From: Demequina maris
GTDB taxonomy: Bacteria; Actinomycetota; Actinomycetes; Actinomycetales; Demequinaceae
Reading direction: 5' to 3'
Length of the DNA: 64,000 bases
Assembly (NCBI RefSeq): GCF_000971155.1
Contig: NZ_BBLX01000003.1
Span: 62,001-126,000 of the forward strand
Below are positions 17,616 to 22,576 of this stretch, piece after piece; position 1 is the stretch's first letter, and each line of letters starts with the position of its first letter. The notes beneath the pieces were generated by a model. That model was not told where the DNA came from, did no database searches, and saw only the letters and a list, made by a program, of their open reading frames with translations. Both the position numbers and the translations under genes were made by a program.

Positions 17616-17996
17616 TTACGCGGCGGGCGCGTTGACGTCGGCCGGGAGGGCCTTCTTCGCCGTGTCGACGAGGGTCGCGAAGGCGGCCTCGTCGTTCACC
17701 GCGAGCTCGGCGAGCATGCGGCGGTCCACCTCGATGCCAGCGGCCTTGAGGCCCTGGATGAAGCGGTTGTAGGTCATGCCGTTCGCACGGGCCGCAGCGT
17801 TGATGCGCTGGATCCACAGCTTGCGGAAGTCGCCCTTGCGCTTGCGGCGGTCGTTGTACGAGTAGACGAGGGAGTGGGTGACCTGCTCCTTCGCCTTGCG
17901 GTAGAGGCGCGAGCGCTGGCCGCGGTAGCCCGCAGCGCGCTCGAGGGTCGTCCGGCGCTTCTTCTGGGCGTTGACCGCCCGCTTGACGCGTGCCAT
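17616..17996 (-). CDS. rplT: 50S ribosomal protein L20
   Basis: 126 residues beginning [20 protein letters not shown], with the L20 signature around [20 protein letters not shown] and [20 protein letters not shown]. It binds 23S rRNA and is needed early in large-subunit assembly. It follows rpmI on the same strand with a 36-base gap and belongs to the infC operon. Confidence 0.98.
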
Positions 17997-18032
17997 TTCA
18001 GTTCTCCTAAAGGTACGTGTAGGGGGCGGGGC

Positions 18033-18227
18033 TTACTTGCCCAGCAGCTTCTTGATCTTCTTCGAGTCGGCGTCCGACAGGATCTGGTCCTGGGCCACGC
18101 GGCGCTTGCGCGAGGAGTGCTTCTCCTCGAACTTGTGGACGTTCATCGCCGAGGCGTGCTTCACCTTGCCGGTGCCGGTGAGCTTGAAGCGCTTCTTGGC
18201 ACCCGAGTGGGTCTTGTTCTTGGGCAT
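18033..18227 (-). CDS. rpmI: 50S ribosomal protein L35
   Basis: 64 residues, MPKNKTHSGAKKRFKLTGTG to KIKKLLGK, the full L35 length. The ATG at 18227 is preceded by AAGGAGAGGCAGCA. It is the middle gene of infC-rpmI-rplT. Confidence 0.98.
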   Translation of the reverse strand: MPKNKTHSGAKKRFKLTGTGKVKHASAMNVHKFEEKHSSRKRRVAQDQILSDADSKKIKKLLGK

Positions 18228-18321
18228 TGCTGCCTCTCCTTCTAGGTCTGGCTGGGCCCGGTGGAACCCAGCACGTTTCACGGGCGGCTGGCGCCCGAAG
18301 CCTGTGTGCGTCTCGCGACGA

Positions 18322-18984
18322 CTACTCGGCGGCCGACTCCTCGACCACCTCGGCGGCCGACTCCTCGGCTGCCTCATCGACACCCTTGTGGGGGCCCTTG
18401 CGCTCCTCGCGCGCCGCCGCCTCCGCGGCCTTGCGCTCCTCGCGCACCTTGCGCTGCTCCTCCTTGGCCTCCGCCTTCTTCTTCAGCGGACCCAGGACCA
18501 GCGACATGTTGCGGCCCTCCTGGTTCGGCGCGTTCTCCACGACGCCGAACTCCTGGACCTCCTCCGCGAGCTTCATCAGCAGGCGGCGGCCCATCTCAGG
18601 ACGGGACTGCTCGCGACCACGGAACATGATCGTGATCTTGACCTTGTCGCCACCCTTGAGGAACCGGACGACGTGACCCTTCTTGGTCTCGTAGTCGTGC
18701 TCGTCGATCTTCAGGCGGAACCGCATCTCCTTGATCTCGGTGTTCGCCTGGTTGCGACGTGCCTCGCGTGCCTTGACCGCAGCCTCGTACTTGAACTTTC
18801 CGTAGTCCATGAGCTTGACGACGGGAGGACGCGAGTTGGGCGCCACCTCGACCAGGTCGAGCTCGGCGTCCTGCGCCAGACGGAGGGCATCCTCGATGCG
18901 GACGATGCCGACCTGCTCGCCCTTCGGACCGACCAGGCGGACCTCGGGGACACGGATGCGCTCGTTGATGCGCGGCTCGTTGAT
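18322..18984 (-). CDS. infC: translation initiation factor IF-3, ATC start
   Basis: The homologous N-terminus reads [20 protein letters not shown], which begins at an ATC codon (18984) with AAGGAG five bases upstream. No ATG, GTG or TTG fits; the first ATG would remove the start of the N-domain. IF-3 genes classically use a rare start (AUU in E. coli) so that IF-3 limits its own synthesis. The product is 220 residues: N-domain, linker ([20 protein letters not shown]), C-domain ([19 protein letters not shown]), and an unusual acidic/Ala-rich C-terminal tail of about 45 residues common in actinobacterial IF-3. Confidence 0.95.
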
Positions 18985-19215: not shown

Positions 19216-19653
19216 ATGAGCAGCAATGACCAGGCAGCAGGTCCCGGTCCCTCCGGATCGGACGGACCAGAGGCCCACGATGAGACCACCGGAGCGCCTA
19301 TGACGGGCGTGCCCGGGGACGATGCGGGGGTCGCCGACGCGGCCCGCGACATCGCCGAGGTGGGCGCCGTGGAACTTATCACCACGGTAAGCGTTCATCT
19401 CCTGAGTGCCGCCGCGCTTCGGTGCGGTCTGGCGGAGGAAGGCGAGGACCTCAAGGACCTCGACGAGGCGCGGACGATCATCAACGCGCTTGCGGGACTC
19501 GTCACCGCCGCCGCCCCGGATCTCGGTGACACCCACGCGCGCGTCCTGCGGGACGGGTTGCGAAGCGTACAGTTGGCATTCCGGGAGGCCTCGGTGGTCC
19601 CGGACAGGCCCGGAGACGGGCCCGGCGAGAAGTACACGGGGGCGGTCACGTAG
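19216..19653 (+). CDS. DUF1844-domain protein
   Basis: 145 residues from ATG 19216. After a polar N-terminus of 45 residues comes the DUF1844 helical domain (AVELITTVSVHLLSAAALRC, DLKDLDEARTIINALAGLVT, LRDGLRSVQLAFREASVVPD). The family is small, acidic, of unknown function, and regularly found divergent from infC in actinobacteria. Its TAG stop overlaps the GTG start of the next gene by one base, so here it heads a five-gene operon with the coiled-coil/protease modules. One GGACGATGC motif lies inside (19317). Confidence 0.85.
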   Translation: MSSNDQAAGPGPSGSDGPEAHDETTGAPMTGVPGDDAGVADAARDIAEVGAVELITTVSVHLLSAAALRCGLAEEGEDLKDLDEARTIINALAGLVTAAAPDLGDTHARVLRDGLRSVQLAFREASVVPDRPGDGPGEKYTGAVT

Positions 19654-20534
19654 TGACGACTGGGGAGGACAGCCGTCGAGACGGCGCGAGGGGTGACCTC
19701 GTGATCTCGGCGAGCCCTCCCGAGGGTGTCAACCGCCCTCGCGTCCCGTTCCTCCCCGTCACGCAGCCCGATCCGGCCGCTGGCGAGCCCGCGGAGCCCA
19801 CCGACCACGTCGACACCGACGAGATCCCTGTCGCCGGCGGCGAGAGCGCCGGCGAGCGCGCGGCAACGCCCGAGCCCGCCGCGCCGCCCTCCTCCTCGCC
19901 CACCTCGTCCCCGACCATCGACGAGGCCCATCGCTACGGCGAGGACGACGACGCCGACCCCGTCGTGCCCGACGACCCCGAGGACGAGGCGGCCGCCGCG
20001 GAGACCGCGTACGCGCATCGTCCCCGCCCGGTCGGCCTGGTGGTGACGATCGCGATGCTCACCGTCCTCCTGCTCGCGGCCTCGGCGCTCATCGCGTACC
20101 TGTGGCGCGTGTCCGAGGCGTGGGAGGAGCGCGTGGTCGAGATGACCGCGTACAGCTACGGCCTGGGCGAGGACCTCGCCTCCGAGCGGGACACCCTGAC
20201 CACCACGCAAGAGCAGCTGGACCTCGTGTCGCAGCAGCTGTCCGCCTCGAAGGACACCGTGAGCCGCCTGCAGGCCGAGAACGCCCAGTGGGGCGACGAC
20301 GCCGCGTACGCGCAGGAGCAGATCGCGGGCCTGCAGGAGATCATCACGGACGCGACGTCGGTCGCGAACTCGCTGAGCCGCTGCATCCAGGGCCACGAGC
20401 AGCTCGCCGAGTACCTCGCGAACCCCGACGACCTCAAGCCCAAGGAGCTGCGCAGCTTCGAGGCGAGCGTCGACGAGCTGTGCCAGGCGGCCGCCGACGC
20501 CAACCTCACGTTCCAGCAGTCGGTGGCCCCGTGA
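19653..20534 (+). CDS. single-pass membrane protein with extracytoplasmic coiled coil (module copy 1)
   Basis: 293 residues from GTG 19653. Residues 1-125 are Pro/Glu/Ala-rich and probably cytoplasmic. One membrane helix spans about 127-150 (VGLVVTIAMLTVLLLAASAL). A coiled coil follows at 160-235 (ERDTLTTTQEQLDLVSQQLS), and a small C-terminal domain has two cysteines, C244 and C277, 32 residues apart. The gene at 21274 has the same layout and identical Cys spacing. The stop overlaps the GTG of the protease gene (GTGA). No enzyme motif is visible. A role as membrane partner or regulator of the adjacent protease is inferred from the repeated pairing. Confidence 0.8.
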   Translation: MTTGEDSRRDGARGDLVISASPPEGVNRPRVPFLPVTQPDPAAGEPAEPTDHVDTDEIPVAGGESAGERAATPEPAAPPSSSPTSSPTIDEAHRYGEDDDADPVVPDDPEDEAAAAETAYAHRPRPVGLVVTIAMLTVLLLAASALIAYLWRVSEAWEERVVEMTAYSYGLGEDLASERDTLTTTQEQLDLVSQQLSASKDTVSRLQAENAQWGDDAAYAQEQIAGLQEIITDATSVANSLSRCIQGHEQLAEYLANPDDLKPKELRSFEASVDELCQAAADANLTFQQSVAP

Positions 20535-21277
20535 TCCGCACCCGAGTCGCGGCCCTCACCCTCGCGGCCCTGGCGCTGACCGGCTGCGCGGCCCTGCCGC
20601 AGGCCCCCGGCGCGATGCCCGACGACTTCGTCCCCGAGCCCTCGGCGTCGCCGGGCGAGGTCGCGGTCGCCCTCTCCCCCGACGGCTTCTCCGCCGCGCA
20701 GCGCATGACGGTGCGCGTGCGGAACGTCGGCTGCGGGTTCATCGCCACCGGCACCGGCTTCGCGCTCAACGACCACACGCTGGTGACCAACCGCCACGTG
20801 GTCGCCGACGCCAAGCGCATCACCCTCACCACCTACGACGGCCGCTCGATCGCCGCGACCGCCGCCGCGACCACCACCATCGCCGACATCGCGATCATCA
20901 CCACCGAGGAGTCGCTCGGCTCGTCGTACGCGGTGCGGGCCGACGAGGACCCCGCCGAGGGCGACGTCATCACGGTGGTCGGCTACCCGAACGGCGGGCG
21001 CCTCACCACGTCCGCGGGCGTGGTGCTCGGACCGACCACGGACCCGCTGGGCGGCGCCGTCGGCACCGTGCTCGCGACGAGCGCGAAGGTCGAGCAGGGC
21101 TCCTCGGGCTCGCCCGTGCTCGACGAGGCCGGCACCGTGGTCGGCGTCATCTACGCGAAGAACTACTCGAACCAGAGCTTCATCGTGCCCATCTCGACCC
21201 TCAACACGCTGCTCGACGAGGCCTCGCTGTTCGTGCCCGAGTCGACCTGCACGTCGTCCAGCGTGGGGTCGACGTGA
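20531..21277 (+). CDS. trypsin-like serine protease lipoprotein (module copy 1)
   Basis: 248 residues from GTG 20531. The signal peptide ends in a lipobox LALTGC (C19), so the protein should be lipid-anchored outside the membrane. The chymotrypsin-fold triad is visible: H89 (VTNRHVV), D119 (IADIAII) and S192 (QGSSGSPV). C68 near the domain start and C240 near the C-terminus are conserved in the second copy and could form a disulphide. The fold resembles HtrA/trypsin-like peptidases without a PDZ domain. It is translated by 4-base overlaps with the coiled-coil genes on both sides, which points to a complex. The substrate is unknown. Confidence 0.85.
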   Translation: MIRTRVAALTLAALALTGCAALPQAPGAMPDDFVPEPSASPGEVAVALSPDGFSAAQRMTVRVRNVGCGFIATGTGFALNDHTLVTNRHVVADAKRITLTTYDGRSIAATAAATTTIADIAIITTEESLGSSYAVRADEDPAEGDVITVVGYPNGGRLTTSAGVVLGPTTDPLGGAVGTVLATSAKVEQGSSGSPVLDEAGTVVGVIYAKNYSNQSFIVPISTLNTLLDEASLFVPESTCTSSSVGST

Positions 21278-21873
21278 CCGAGGACGACCCGCGCGGCCCG
21301 AACGGCCCGCAGCCGGAGCCTGTTCCTGCGCCGGAGGCGGCGCAAGATTCCGCGCCCGCGCCCGTCCCCGCGCAGGATTCCGCGCCCGTCCCCGAGCCCA
21401 CCCCCGCTCCGGCGCCCGCCCGCCGGCGGGGCCTCGCGATCGCCCTCGGGCTCAGCCTCGTCGCCGTGGTCGCGCTCGCCGTCCCCCTCGCGATGCTCGC
21501 AACGGCGCGCTCGACGTGGGAGGGCCAGAACGACGAGCTGCGCGCCCATGTGGAGTCGCTCACCGACGAGGTCTCCGCTCAGAACGCGCGCATCGCCGAG
21601 CTCGAGCAGACCGAGGCGCAGCTGGCGACCCTCAAGGAGGAGTACTCCTCCGCCGTGAACCAGGGCGCGCAGGGCACCGAGCTCGTCGAGGAGCTCGAGG
21701 ACATCGCCGACGCGTACCAGAAGTGCGTGGAGGCGCAGCAGGAGCACTTCGACGTGCTGCGCAACTCCGAGCTGTACGTGCGGTCGAGCATCGACGACTC
21801 CGAGCAGTCGATCGTCGCGTTCTGCGACGAGGTGACGGCGGCGTACCAGGACTTCCGGGAGAAGCATGGGTGA
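21274..21873 (+). CDS. single-pass membrane protein with extracytoplasmic coiled coil (module copy 2)
   Basis: 199 residues from GTG 21274, overlapping the protease stop (GTGA). A Pro-rich cytoplasmic tail of about 50 residues, a membrane helix at 53-76 (GLAIALGLSLVAVVALAVPL), a coiled coil at 80-130 (HVESLTDEVSAQNARIAELE) and a C-terminal region with C151 and C184, 32 residues apart, exactly as in copy 1. Overall identity to copy 1 is low, so the duplication is old and the shared layout is under constraint. It overlaps the next protease gene by 8 bases. Confidence 0.78.
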   Translation: MTEDDPRGPNGPQPEPVPAPEAAQDSAPAPVPAQDSAPVPEPTPAPAPARRRGLAIALGLSLVAVVALAVPLAMLATARSTWEGQNDELRAHVESLTDEVSAQNARIAELEQTEAQLATLKEEYSSAVNQGAQGTELVEELEDIADAYQKCVEAQQEHFDVLRNSELYVRSSIDDSEQSIVAFCDEVTAAYQDFREKHG

Positions 21874-22576
21874 GCGGCGCCGCCTCGGCGTCGTCGCCCT
21901 GGCGCTCGCCTGCGCCACGGCCGTCTCGGCCTGCGTCCCCCTCGCTCCCCCGCCCTACGCGACCCCCAGCCCGGTGCTGGCCACCGCCGCCGCATCGTCC
22001 GACGACGGCTTCACCCACGCCGAGCGCATCGCGCTGCGCGTGTGGGCGATCAGCTGCGACGCGTACCGCAACGGCACCGCGTGGATGCTCGACGAGACCC
22101 ACGCCGTCACCAATCGCCACGTGGTCAGGGACACCACCCACATCGAGCTCACCGACTACCAGGGGCGCGAGTACCGGGTGGTGTCCGCCGAGTACTCGCG
22201 CGACGACGACCTCGCGCTCGTCACCATCGACGGCACCTTCCCCGAGGCCGGCACGCTCGCCTCCGACGAGCCCGCGCTCGGCGACGACCTGACCGTGAGC
22301 GGCTACGCGCTCGGCGGGCCGCTCGCCTCCGTGACCGGGCCGTACGTCGACCTGCGCGTCAACGACCTCGACCCCACCGGCGCCGAGATCTACTACCTCC
22401 GGCTGCTCGCGCGCGAGGGCAACTCCGGCTCGCCGGTGACCGACGCGGCCGGCGACGTGGTGGGCGTCGTCTTCTCGTCGGACGGCGAGAGGTACGCGGG
22501 CGCGGTCACGCTCCCGCGGCTCGAGGCCTTCCTCGCGGACGATGCGAAGCGCACCGAGGTCGACGCGTCCTGCTGA
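21866..22576 (+). CDS. trypsin-like serine protease lipoprotein (module copy 2)
   Basis: 236 residues from ATG 21866. Lipobox AVSAC (C23). Triad H85 (VTNRHVV, the same context as copy 1), D115 (RDDDLALV) and S177 (EGNSGSPV). C64 and the C-terminal residue C236 match the Cys pair of copy 1. The rest has diverged. It is the last gene of the operon headed by DUF1844. The linker after the lipobox carries a GCATCGTCC motif (21992, read as AASS) and the 3' end another on the opposite strand (22537, read as DDA). Confidence 0.85.
   Translation: MGERRRLGVVALALACATAVSACVPLAPPPYATPSPVLATAAASSDDGFTHAERIALRVWAISCDAYRNGTAWMLDETHAVTNRHVVRDTTHIELTDYQGREYRVVSAEYSRDDDLALVTIDGTFPEAGTLASDEPALGDDLTVSGYALGGPLASVTGPYVDLRVNDLDPTGAEIYYLRLLAREGNSGSPVTDAAGDVVGVVFSSDGERYAGAVTLPRLEAFLADDAKRTEVDASC

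Follow-up and report, generated by a model that had tools for sequence, protein, structure and literature searches.

Why should an actinobacterial operon carry, twice in succession, a gene for a coiled-coil membrane protein followed by a gene for a trypsin-like lipoprotein, and what do the two products do for each other? The question is raised by a stretch of the Demequina maris genome (assembly GCF_000971155.1, contig NZ_BBLX01000003.1, positions 62,001-126,000, forward strand), 64,000 nucleotides long and referred to as a whole as the window. Here, the genes DUF1844, cc1, pr1, cc2 and pr2 follow one another head to tail with overlaps of 1, 4, 4 and 8 bases, cc1 and cc2 encoding the coiled-coil proteins and pr1 and pr2 the proteases. 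A preliminary description of this DNA had reported four open reading frames (ORFs) at 19653-22576 with these overlaps, with paired cysteines and with intact catalytic triads, all of which was confirmed by the ORF coordinates and translations (Table 1). Our analysis indicates that the coiled-coil gene and the protease gene form one conserved unit, whose protease half is related to MarP of mycobacteria.

Pairing of the protease with a coiled-coil gene

The strictness of the pairing is the main evidence for such a unit. A cc ORF lies directly upstream, on the same strand, of 166 of 166 distinct proteases of the family, the criterion being a cc stop codon no more than 250 or 200 bases ahead of where the protease is expected to start. 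These 166 were obtained from 122 rows of a genome set (window included) and 103 rows of named loci, 225 in total, by reduction to distinct protease sequences; proteases under 200 bits (those of G052 and G045 and that of G172 at L148) had been left out before the counts. The family itself is well delimited, with 105 matches of at least 215 bits in 78 of the 396 genomes of the order that were searched with the protease profile and all else at 127 bits or less, which leaves a clean gap. When the same 396 genomes were searched with the cc profile at an E value of 1e-8, 104 matches were found in 77 genomes, and 103 of the 104 were directly upstream of a family protease; the two family proteases without a cc match at this threshold carry a weaker one upstream. 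In the named set, which was drawn from the best 80 of 146 confirmed loci and includes Demequina, Cellulomonas, Isoptericola, Cellulosimicrobium, Actinotalea and others, a cc ORF preceded the protease in 103 of 103 cases, and none of these 103 pairs was a fused cc-protease ORF. The preliminary description had proposed a search for co-occurring pairs in actinobacterial genomes and considered that homologous proteases usually occurring without the coiled-coil gene would refute its proposal; such proteases numbered 0 of 166.

The pairing also extends beyond the order. In a sample of 394 genomes of the class, a single out-of-order genome (G507) reached the family range, at 236.7 bits against 121.0 for the next, although a class-wide protease search may miss more distant pairs below the level of MarP. 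In this genome, which belongs to another order, a cc gene and a protease gene overlap by 4 bases, and their products have both Cys pairs. A lipid anchor on a trypsin-like protease does not by itself entail a cc gene, given that six of six lipobox-bearing trypsin-like proteases outside the family (G172, G599, G260, G647 and two in G668) have no cc gene upstream.

Within the genus, the junctions further identify the pair as the unit that is conserved. Both pairs are present in 29 of the 37 same-genus genomes, the window's included, and one pair is present in the other 8. With start codons taken nearest to the upstream stop, a choice that favors overlaps, the cc1-pr1 junction overlaps by exactly 4 bases in 32 of 36 Demequina cases and the cc2-pr2 junction by 4 or 8 bases in 24 of 29. 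Between pr1 and cc2, 14 of the 28 cases overlap by 4 bases, and the remaining 14 are separated by 10-116 bases. Junctions are thus tight within pairs and variable between them.

A few loci depart from the usual arrangement. In G009 (L084:3210-4568), cc1 and pr1 share one open frame in which pr1 retains its ATG and lipobox, and another frame supplies the usual overlapping stop. We rejected a natural (Rosetta stone) fusion here and consider an indel or sequence error probable, given how odd a fusion with a signal peptide placed behind an extracytoplasmic domain would be. The cc1 gene of G027 (L075) is split over two frames, through sequence error or decay. Two lipoprotein MarP-like proteases, L148:3099-4316 in G172 and L304 in G599, have a C-terminal extension with two more Cys and no cc gene upstream; the former was considered as a fusion candidate on account of these Cys and was rejected, its extension being unlike cc by eye. 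The lipoprotein MarP-like protease encoded at L302 in G668, from another family of the class, stands alone as well, with no cc gene upstream, and has a Cys close to either end of its domain.

Composition of the two halves

The preliminary description knew of no described system with this layout. This stands for the coiled-coil partner, which has no named relative, and does not stand for the protease, which is of MarP type. Both pr1 and pr2 match Trypsin_2 of Pfam (82.1 and 64.9 bits), and their top NCBIfam family is MarP (NF033740), at 90.6 and 79.1 bits, scores that do not reach the curated cut-off of 250. The best PDB sequence matches of pr1 are 3k6z, 3k6y and 3lt3 (M. tuberculosis Rv3671c), and the best of pr2 are Rv3671c entries too. 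The AlphaFold model of pr1, with a mean predicted local distance difference test score (pLDDT) of 80.4, was superimposed on 3k6y with a Z of 25.4 and a root-mean-square deviation of 2.6 over 191 aligned residues (model 43-240 on chain 190-395). The fold alone cannot single out MarP, given that several Deg proteases fit the pr1 model at VIA-align Z up to 26.9, with fits whose Z lies within 1 of each other counted as tied.

The active sites are intact throughout, with the His and Ser motifs kept in 166 of 166 distinct family members and the triad Asp invariant in all rows of alignments A1 (23/23) and A7 (16/16). Both proteins are predicted lipoproteins that would be lipidated at the lipobox Cys following a signal peptide, at position 19 in pr1 and 23 in pr2; Cys19 is invariant in the 23 rows of A1, and counting from the lipobox Cys onward gives exactly three Cys in 165 of 166 distinct members. 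Neither Colicin_V, which is the CvpA four-span domain, nor PDZ was matched by pr1 or pr2 in Pfam at E values up to 1, and in both proteins little sequence follows the protease domain. Colicin_V is matched, at 64.7 bits, by a canonical MarP of the same order. Canonical MarP over the cut-off was found in none of the 37 same-genus genomes, that of the window among them, compared to 13 of 22 other-family genomes of the order, and no match to the CvpA domain was found in the window's genome.

The two remaining Cys of the protease also point to MarP. C68 of pr1 and C64 of pr2 occupy the same alignment column as the first MarP Cys. The C-terminal Cys of pr1 and pr2 and that of MarP fall in separate columns of the sequence alignment, and in the structural match C240 of pr1 is the final aligned residue, opposite chain residue 395 of 3k6y, which we take to be the second Cys of MarP. 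PMC4992679 reports that residues 214 and 397 of the M. avium subsp. paratuberculosis protein are predicted to form a disulfide, one that MarP also has, and cites structural work for the disulfide of MarP. Given the column match, the structural match and this stated disulfide, we take the protease Cys pair to be a MarP trait and would expect it to form a disulfide in pr1 and pr2 as well.

For the coiled-coil half, no family above its cut-off was found for cc1 or cc2 in Pfam or NCBIfam, which returned sub-cut-off matches alone. At an E value of 0.001, PHROGs contained no match for either protein, and the one PADLOC match, a marginal hit of cc2 to a coiled-coil entry (E 0.00089), was taken as noise; apart from this match, the defense and phage libraries returned general protease similarity. 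The fold search of cc1 matched no solved fold (best E 0.81). A low-complexity cytoplasmic N-terminal part, which varies in length, is followed by a single span, and the extracytoplasmic portion consists of a long helix and then a terminal hairpin. In the AlphaFold model of cc1 from the span onward, built on 64 sequences (mean pLDDT 88.4, predicted template modeling score 0.56), helices run from 4 to 87, 89 to 134 and 141 to 169, and conservation peaks at residues ~73-93 and in the hairpin. Just past the span, a Trp is conserved in all of 23 aligned rows and varies in the wider set of 64.

C244 and C277 of cc1 are invariant in the 64 rows of alignment A5 and correspond to model residues 122 and 155, at like distances from loop 135-140 of the predicted hairpin. 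In cc1 and cc2 alike, the two Cys are 33 positions apart, with 32 residues between them. Among the 166 distinct members, the spacing is 33 in 127, 34 in 17 and 36 to 62 in 15, and in the cc rows displayed from A5 the added length sits in the hairpin loop. The pair is missing in 7 members, namely, L213, where the cc and protease genes each seem to change frame close to the end through sequence errors or decay, and six genomes of the family labeled f8 (L103 and L181-L185), where the cc protein stops ahead of the hairpin. In these six, the protease retains both of its Cys though the cc hairpin with its Cys is gone. Given the symmetrical position of the two cc Cys in the predicted terminal hairpin, a staple within the cc protein is likelier than a bridge to the protease, provided that a disulfide forms as the model would suggest. 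A GF motif ahead of the protease domain is missing in the same six f8 genomes; its loose pattern also failed in nine hairpin-bearing members, and the member from the other order has the hairpin without GF, so that the joint loss of motif and hairpin amounts to one event at best.

The remaining gene of the operon, DUF1844, matches PF08899 at 53.8 bits (cut-off 27). The preliminary description had it heading the operon, which is correct for Demequina, where it lies upstream at 43 of 43 loci; in the Cellulomonadaceae group, it precedes the pair on the same strand at 28 of 30 loci, though at times with other sequence in between. It was not found in the examined stretches of the sister genus G186 or of families f3, f8 and f17, which places it outside the core unit. 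Divergent from this operon, at 17616-18846 on the minus strand of the window, are genes that we take to be rplT, rpmI and infC from reading their translations.

Table 1. Positions in the window of the paired genes, the cc1 cysteine codons and the neighboring DUF1844 gene.
Feature	Position	Strand	Length	Description
DUF1844 protein	19216..19653	+	145 aa	First gene of the operon; neighbor, not core; Pfam PF08899
cc1	19653..20534	+	293 aa	Bitopic coiled-coil membrane protein; C244/C277
cc1 C244 codon	20382..20384	+		
cc1 C277 codon	20481..20483	+		
pr1	20531..21277	+	248 aa	Predicted lipoprotein with MarP-type chymotrypsin-fold protease domain; H89, D119, S192; C68/C240
cc2	21274..21873	+	199 aa	Second coiled-coil membrane protein; C151/C184; matched by the same profile as cc1
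pr2	21866..22576	+	236 aa	Second predicted lipoprotein protease; H85, D115, S187; C64/C236

Duplication of the pair and the case for a complex

The two pairs in the window have diverged considerably, with 33% identity between pr1 and pr2 over 243 columns and 18% between cc1 and cc2 over 218 columns (E 4e-5), the latter two being weakly alignable. The protease tree and the cc tree, of 121 sequences each and rooted by our choice on family f3, share two deep groups. One holds Demequina copy 1 and one G186 copy (support of 0.92 for the protease and 0.94 for cc), and the other holds Demequina copy 2 and two other G186 copies (0.94 and 0.60). These shared groups support the duplication of the pair as a unit before the split of Demequina and G186, and the earlier proposal of an old duplication with both copies intact is borne out by the two trees and the kept motifs. 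Families f8 and f17 nest, in both trees, in the clade that holds both Demequina copies, which may reflect an even earlier duplication or the movement of genes between lineages. G186 (L142 and L143) has three cc-protease pairs, two of them on one contig with an extra protease-less cc match between them.

Considering the observed composition of the unit, its strict pairing, tight junctions and co-duplication, its intact active sites, its relationship to MarP and the absence of canonical MarP and CvpA from the genome, we think it somewhat probable that the unit works as an envelope protease made of two proteins and tethered to the membrane, a split counterpart of MarP. The lipid anchor would hold the protease on the outer face of the membrane, with its chymotrypsin-type domain braced by the disulfide known from MarP. 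The CvpA four-span part is absent and would be replaced by a separately encoded, translationally coupled bitopic cc protein acting as a dedicated partner, whose long helix would rise from the membrane and end in a hairpin probably stapled by a disulfide of its own. This partner would most likely bind the protease and position or gate it so that, under stress, it acts on substrates in the envelope or cell wall. Duplication before the sampled Demequinaceae genera parted would then have produced two diverged, intact devices.

Several observations weigh against this proposal. Covariation between cc and protease, calculated with 110 effective sequences and compared to 40 shuffles of partners within clusters, was at about the level expected from clade structure (top-20 mean of 0.327 versus 0.330 shuffled), and the highest covarying pair, at 0.582, was barely above the shuffle maximum of 0.575. 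Mirror-tree correlations favored the cognate partner for copy 2 (0.80 for cc2-pr2 compared to 0.57 for cc2-pr1) and showed no cognate excess for copy 1 (0.77 for cc1-pr1 and 0.79 for cc1-pr2). Both are weak tests at this depth, and the claim of binding gets no support from either; given that they gave no clear interface signal, we infer binding rather than report it as observed. In addition, the Cellulomonadaceae group forms one clade in the protease tree and not in the cc tree under the same root, one cc match in G186 has no protease of its own, and the hairpin that the proposal includes is missing from the six f8 genomes. The two of the 22 other-family genomes that carry the pair, G043 and G044, both have a canonical MarP besides, so that the pair is not simply a replacement for MarP.

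The alternative that survives best, which we nonetheless regard as unlikely, is that the cc protein is the substrate or inhibitor of the protease, either as a membrane signal relay that is cut or as a tether that blocks the active site until stress. Strict pairing and tight junctions fit this equally well, and an extracytoplasmic rod with a cytoplasmic part of variable length is seen in substrates of regulated proteolysis. A RipA-family coiled coil blocks a catalytic cleft according to PMC9897464, though the enzyme there is a peptidoglycan hydrolase. However, the cytoplasmic part of cc1 and cc2 has no recognized domain and varies widely in length, and conservation of the cc protein at residues 73-93 and in the hairpin is as for a binding surface, a pattern that cannot tell an inhibitor from a scaffold.

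A further alternative, which we find slightly more doubtful, is that the genes are merely coexpressed and their products act separately in the envelope. The covariation, which hardly exceeds clade level, and the lack of a consistent mirror-tree excess agree with it. However, the pairing survives relocation, as seen in the three families whose examined stretches lack DUF1844, in the third G186 copy on another contig and in the other order, and the tight junctions are conserved within pairs and not between them. A disulfide bridge between the cc protein and the protease, which the preliminary description implied in matching the Cys pairs of the two proteins and which the two non-lipid Cys kept in both proteins of nearly all members might recommend, is very improbable and was rejected, given that the protease pair coincides with that of MarP, that the six f8 genomes retain it without the partner pair and that the cc Cys flank the predicted hairpin loop symmetrically, with extra spacing in the displayed A5 rows falling in the loop. 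The accompanying argument that kept cysteines imply selection for interaction fails as it was worded, since the protease pair is that of MarP.

Comparison with known systems

How the stress protease MarP is controlled through its membrane part is understood only in part. A lineage that lacks this membrane part and has a separate, testable partner offers a route to how such proteases are held and switched, and the duplicated copies provide a built-in test of partner specificity. More tentatively, and with less than even confidence, we suggest that the cc protein could represent a new class of dedicated partner, one that makes an envelope sensor-protease of two parts out of a MarP-type protease with a lipid anchor. 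In Demequina, this device would stand alone where other actinobacteria use the one-piece MarP, in two parallel copies, each with a partner of its own. As far as our searches go, the cc family is new, as is its strict linkage to the protease, and among the matches listed in the literature search, there was no account of such a protease/coiled-coil pair.

The closest parallel to the coiled-coil half is found in RipA/Cg1735 and Cg1604 of Corynebacteriales, where an extracytoplasmic coiled coil likewise controls a cell-wall enzyme, and where MarP can cleave RipA in vitro (PMC9897464 for both). These are other proteins and another enzyme class, and cc1 and cc2 match no family above cut-off, nor cc1 any fold at an E value under 0.8. 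For the idea of a RipA-like substrate, the window's genome has five NlpC/P60 matches.

Proteases of the HtrA/DegS type share the fold and have membrane-tethered forms; in contrast to them, pr1 and pr2 have no PDZ match. Two genes elsewhere in the window's genome are HtrA-like by reading of their translations.

With MarP (Rv3671c; the acid- and oxidative-stress serine protease of mycobacteria), pr1 and pr2 share the extracytoplasmic chymotrypsin-fold domain, the triad, a membrane tether and a Cys toward either end of that domain. They score below the 250 bits of that family and lack its CvpA four-span domain, and they differ from it in carrying a predicted lipid anchor and in always having a cc gene upstream.

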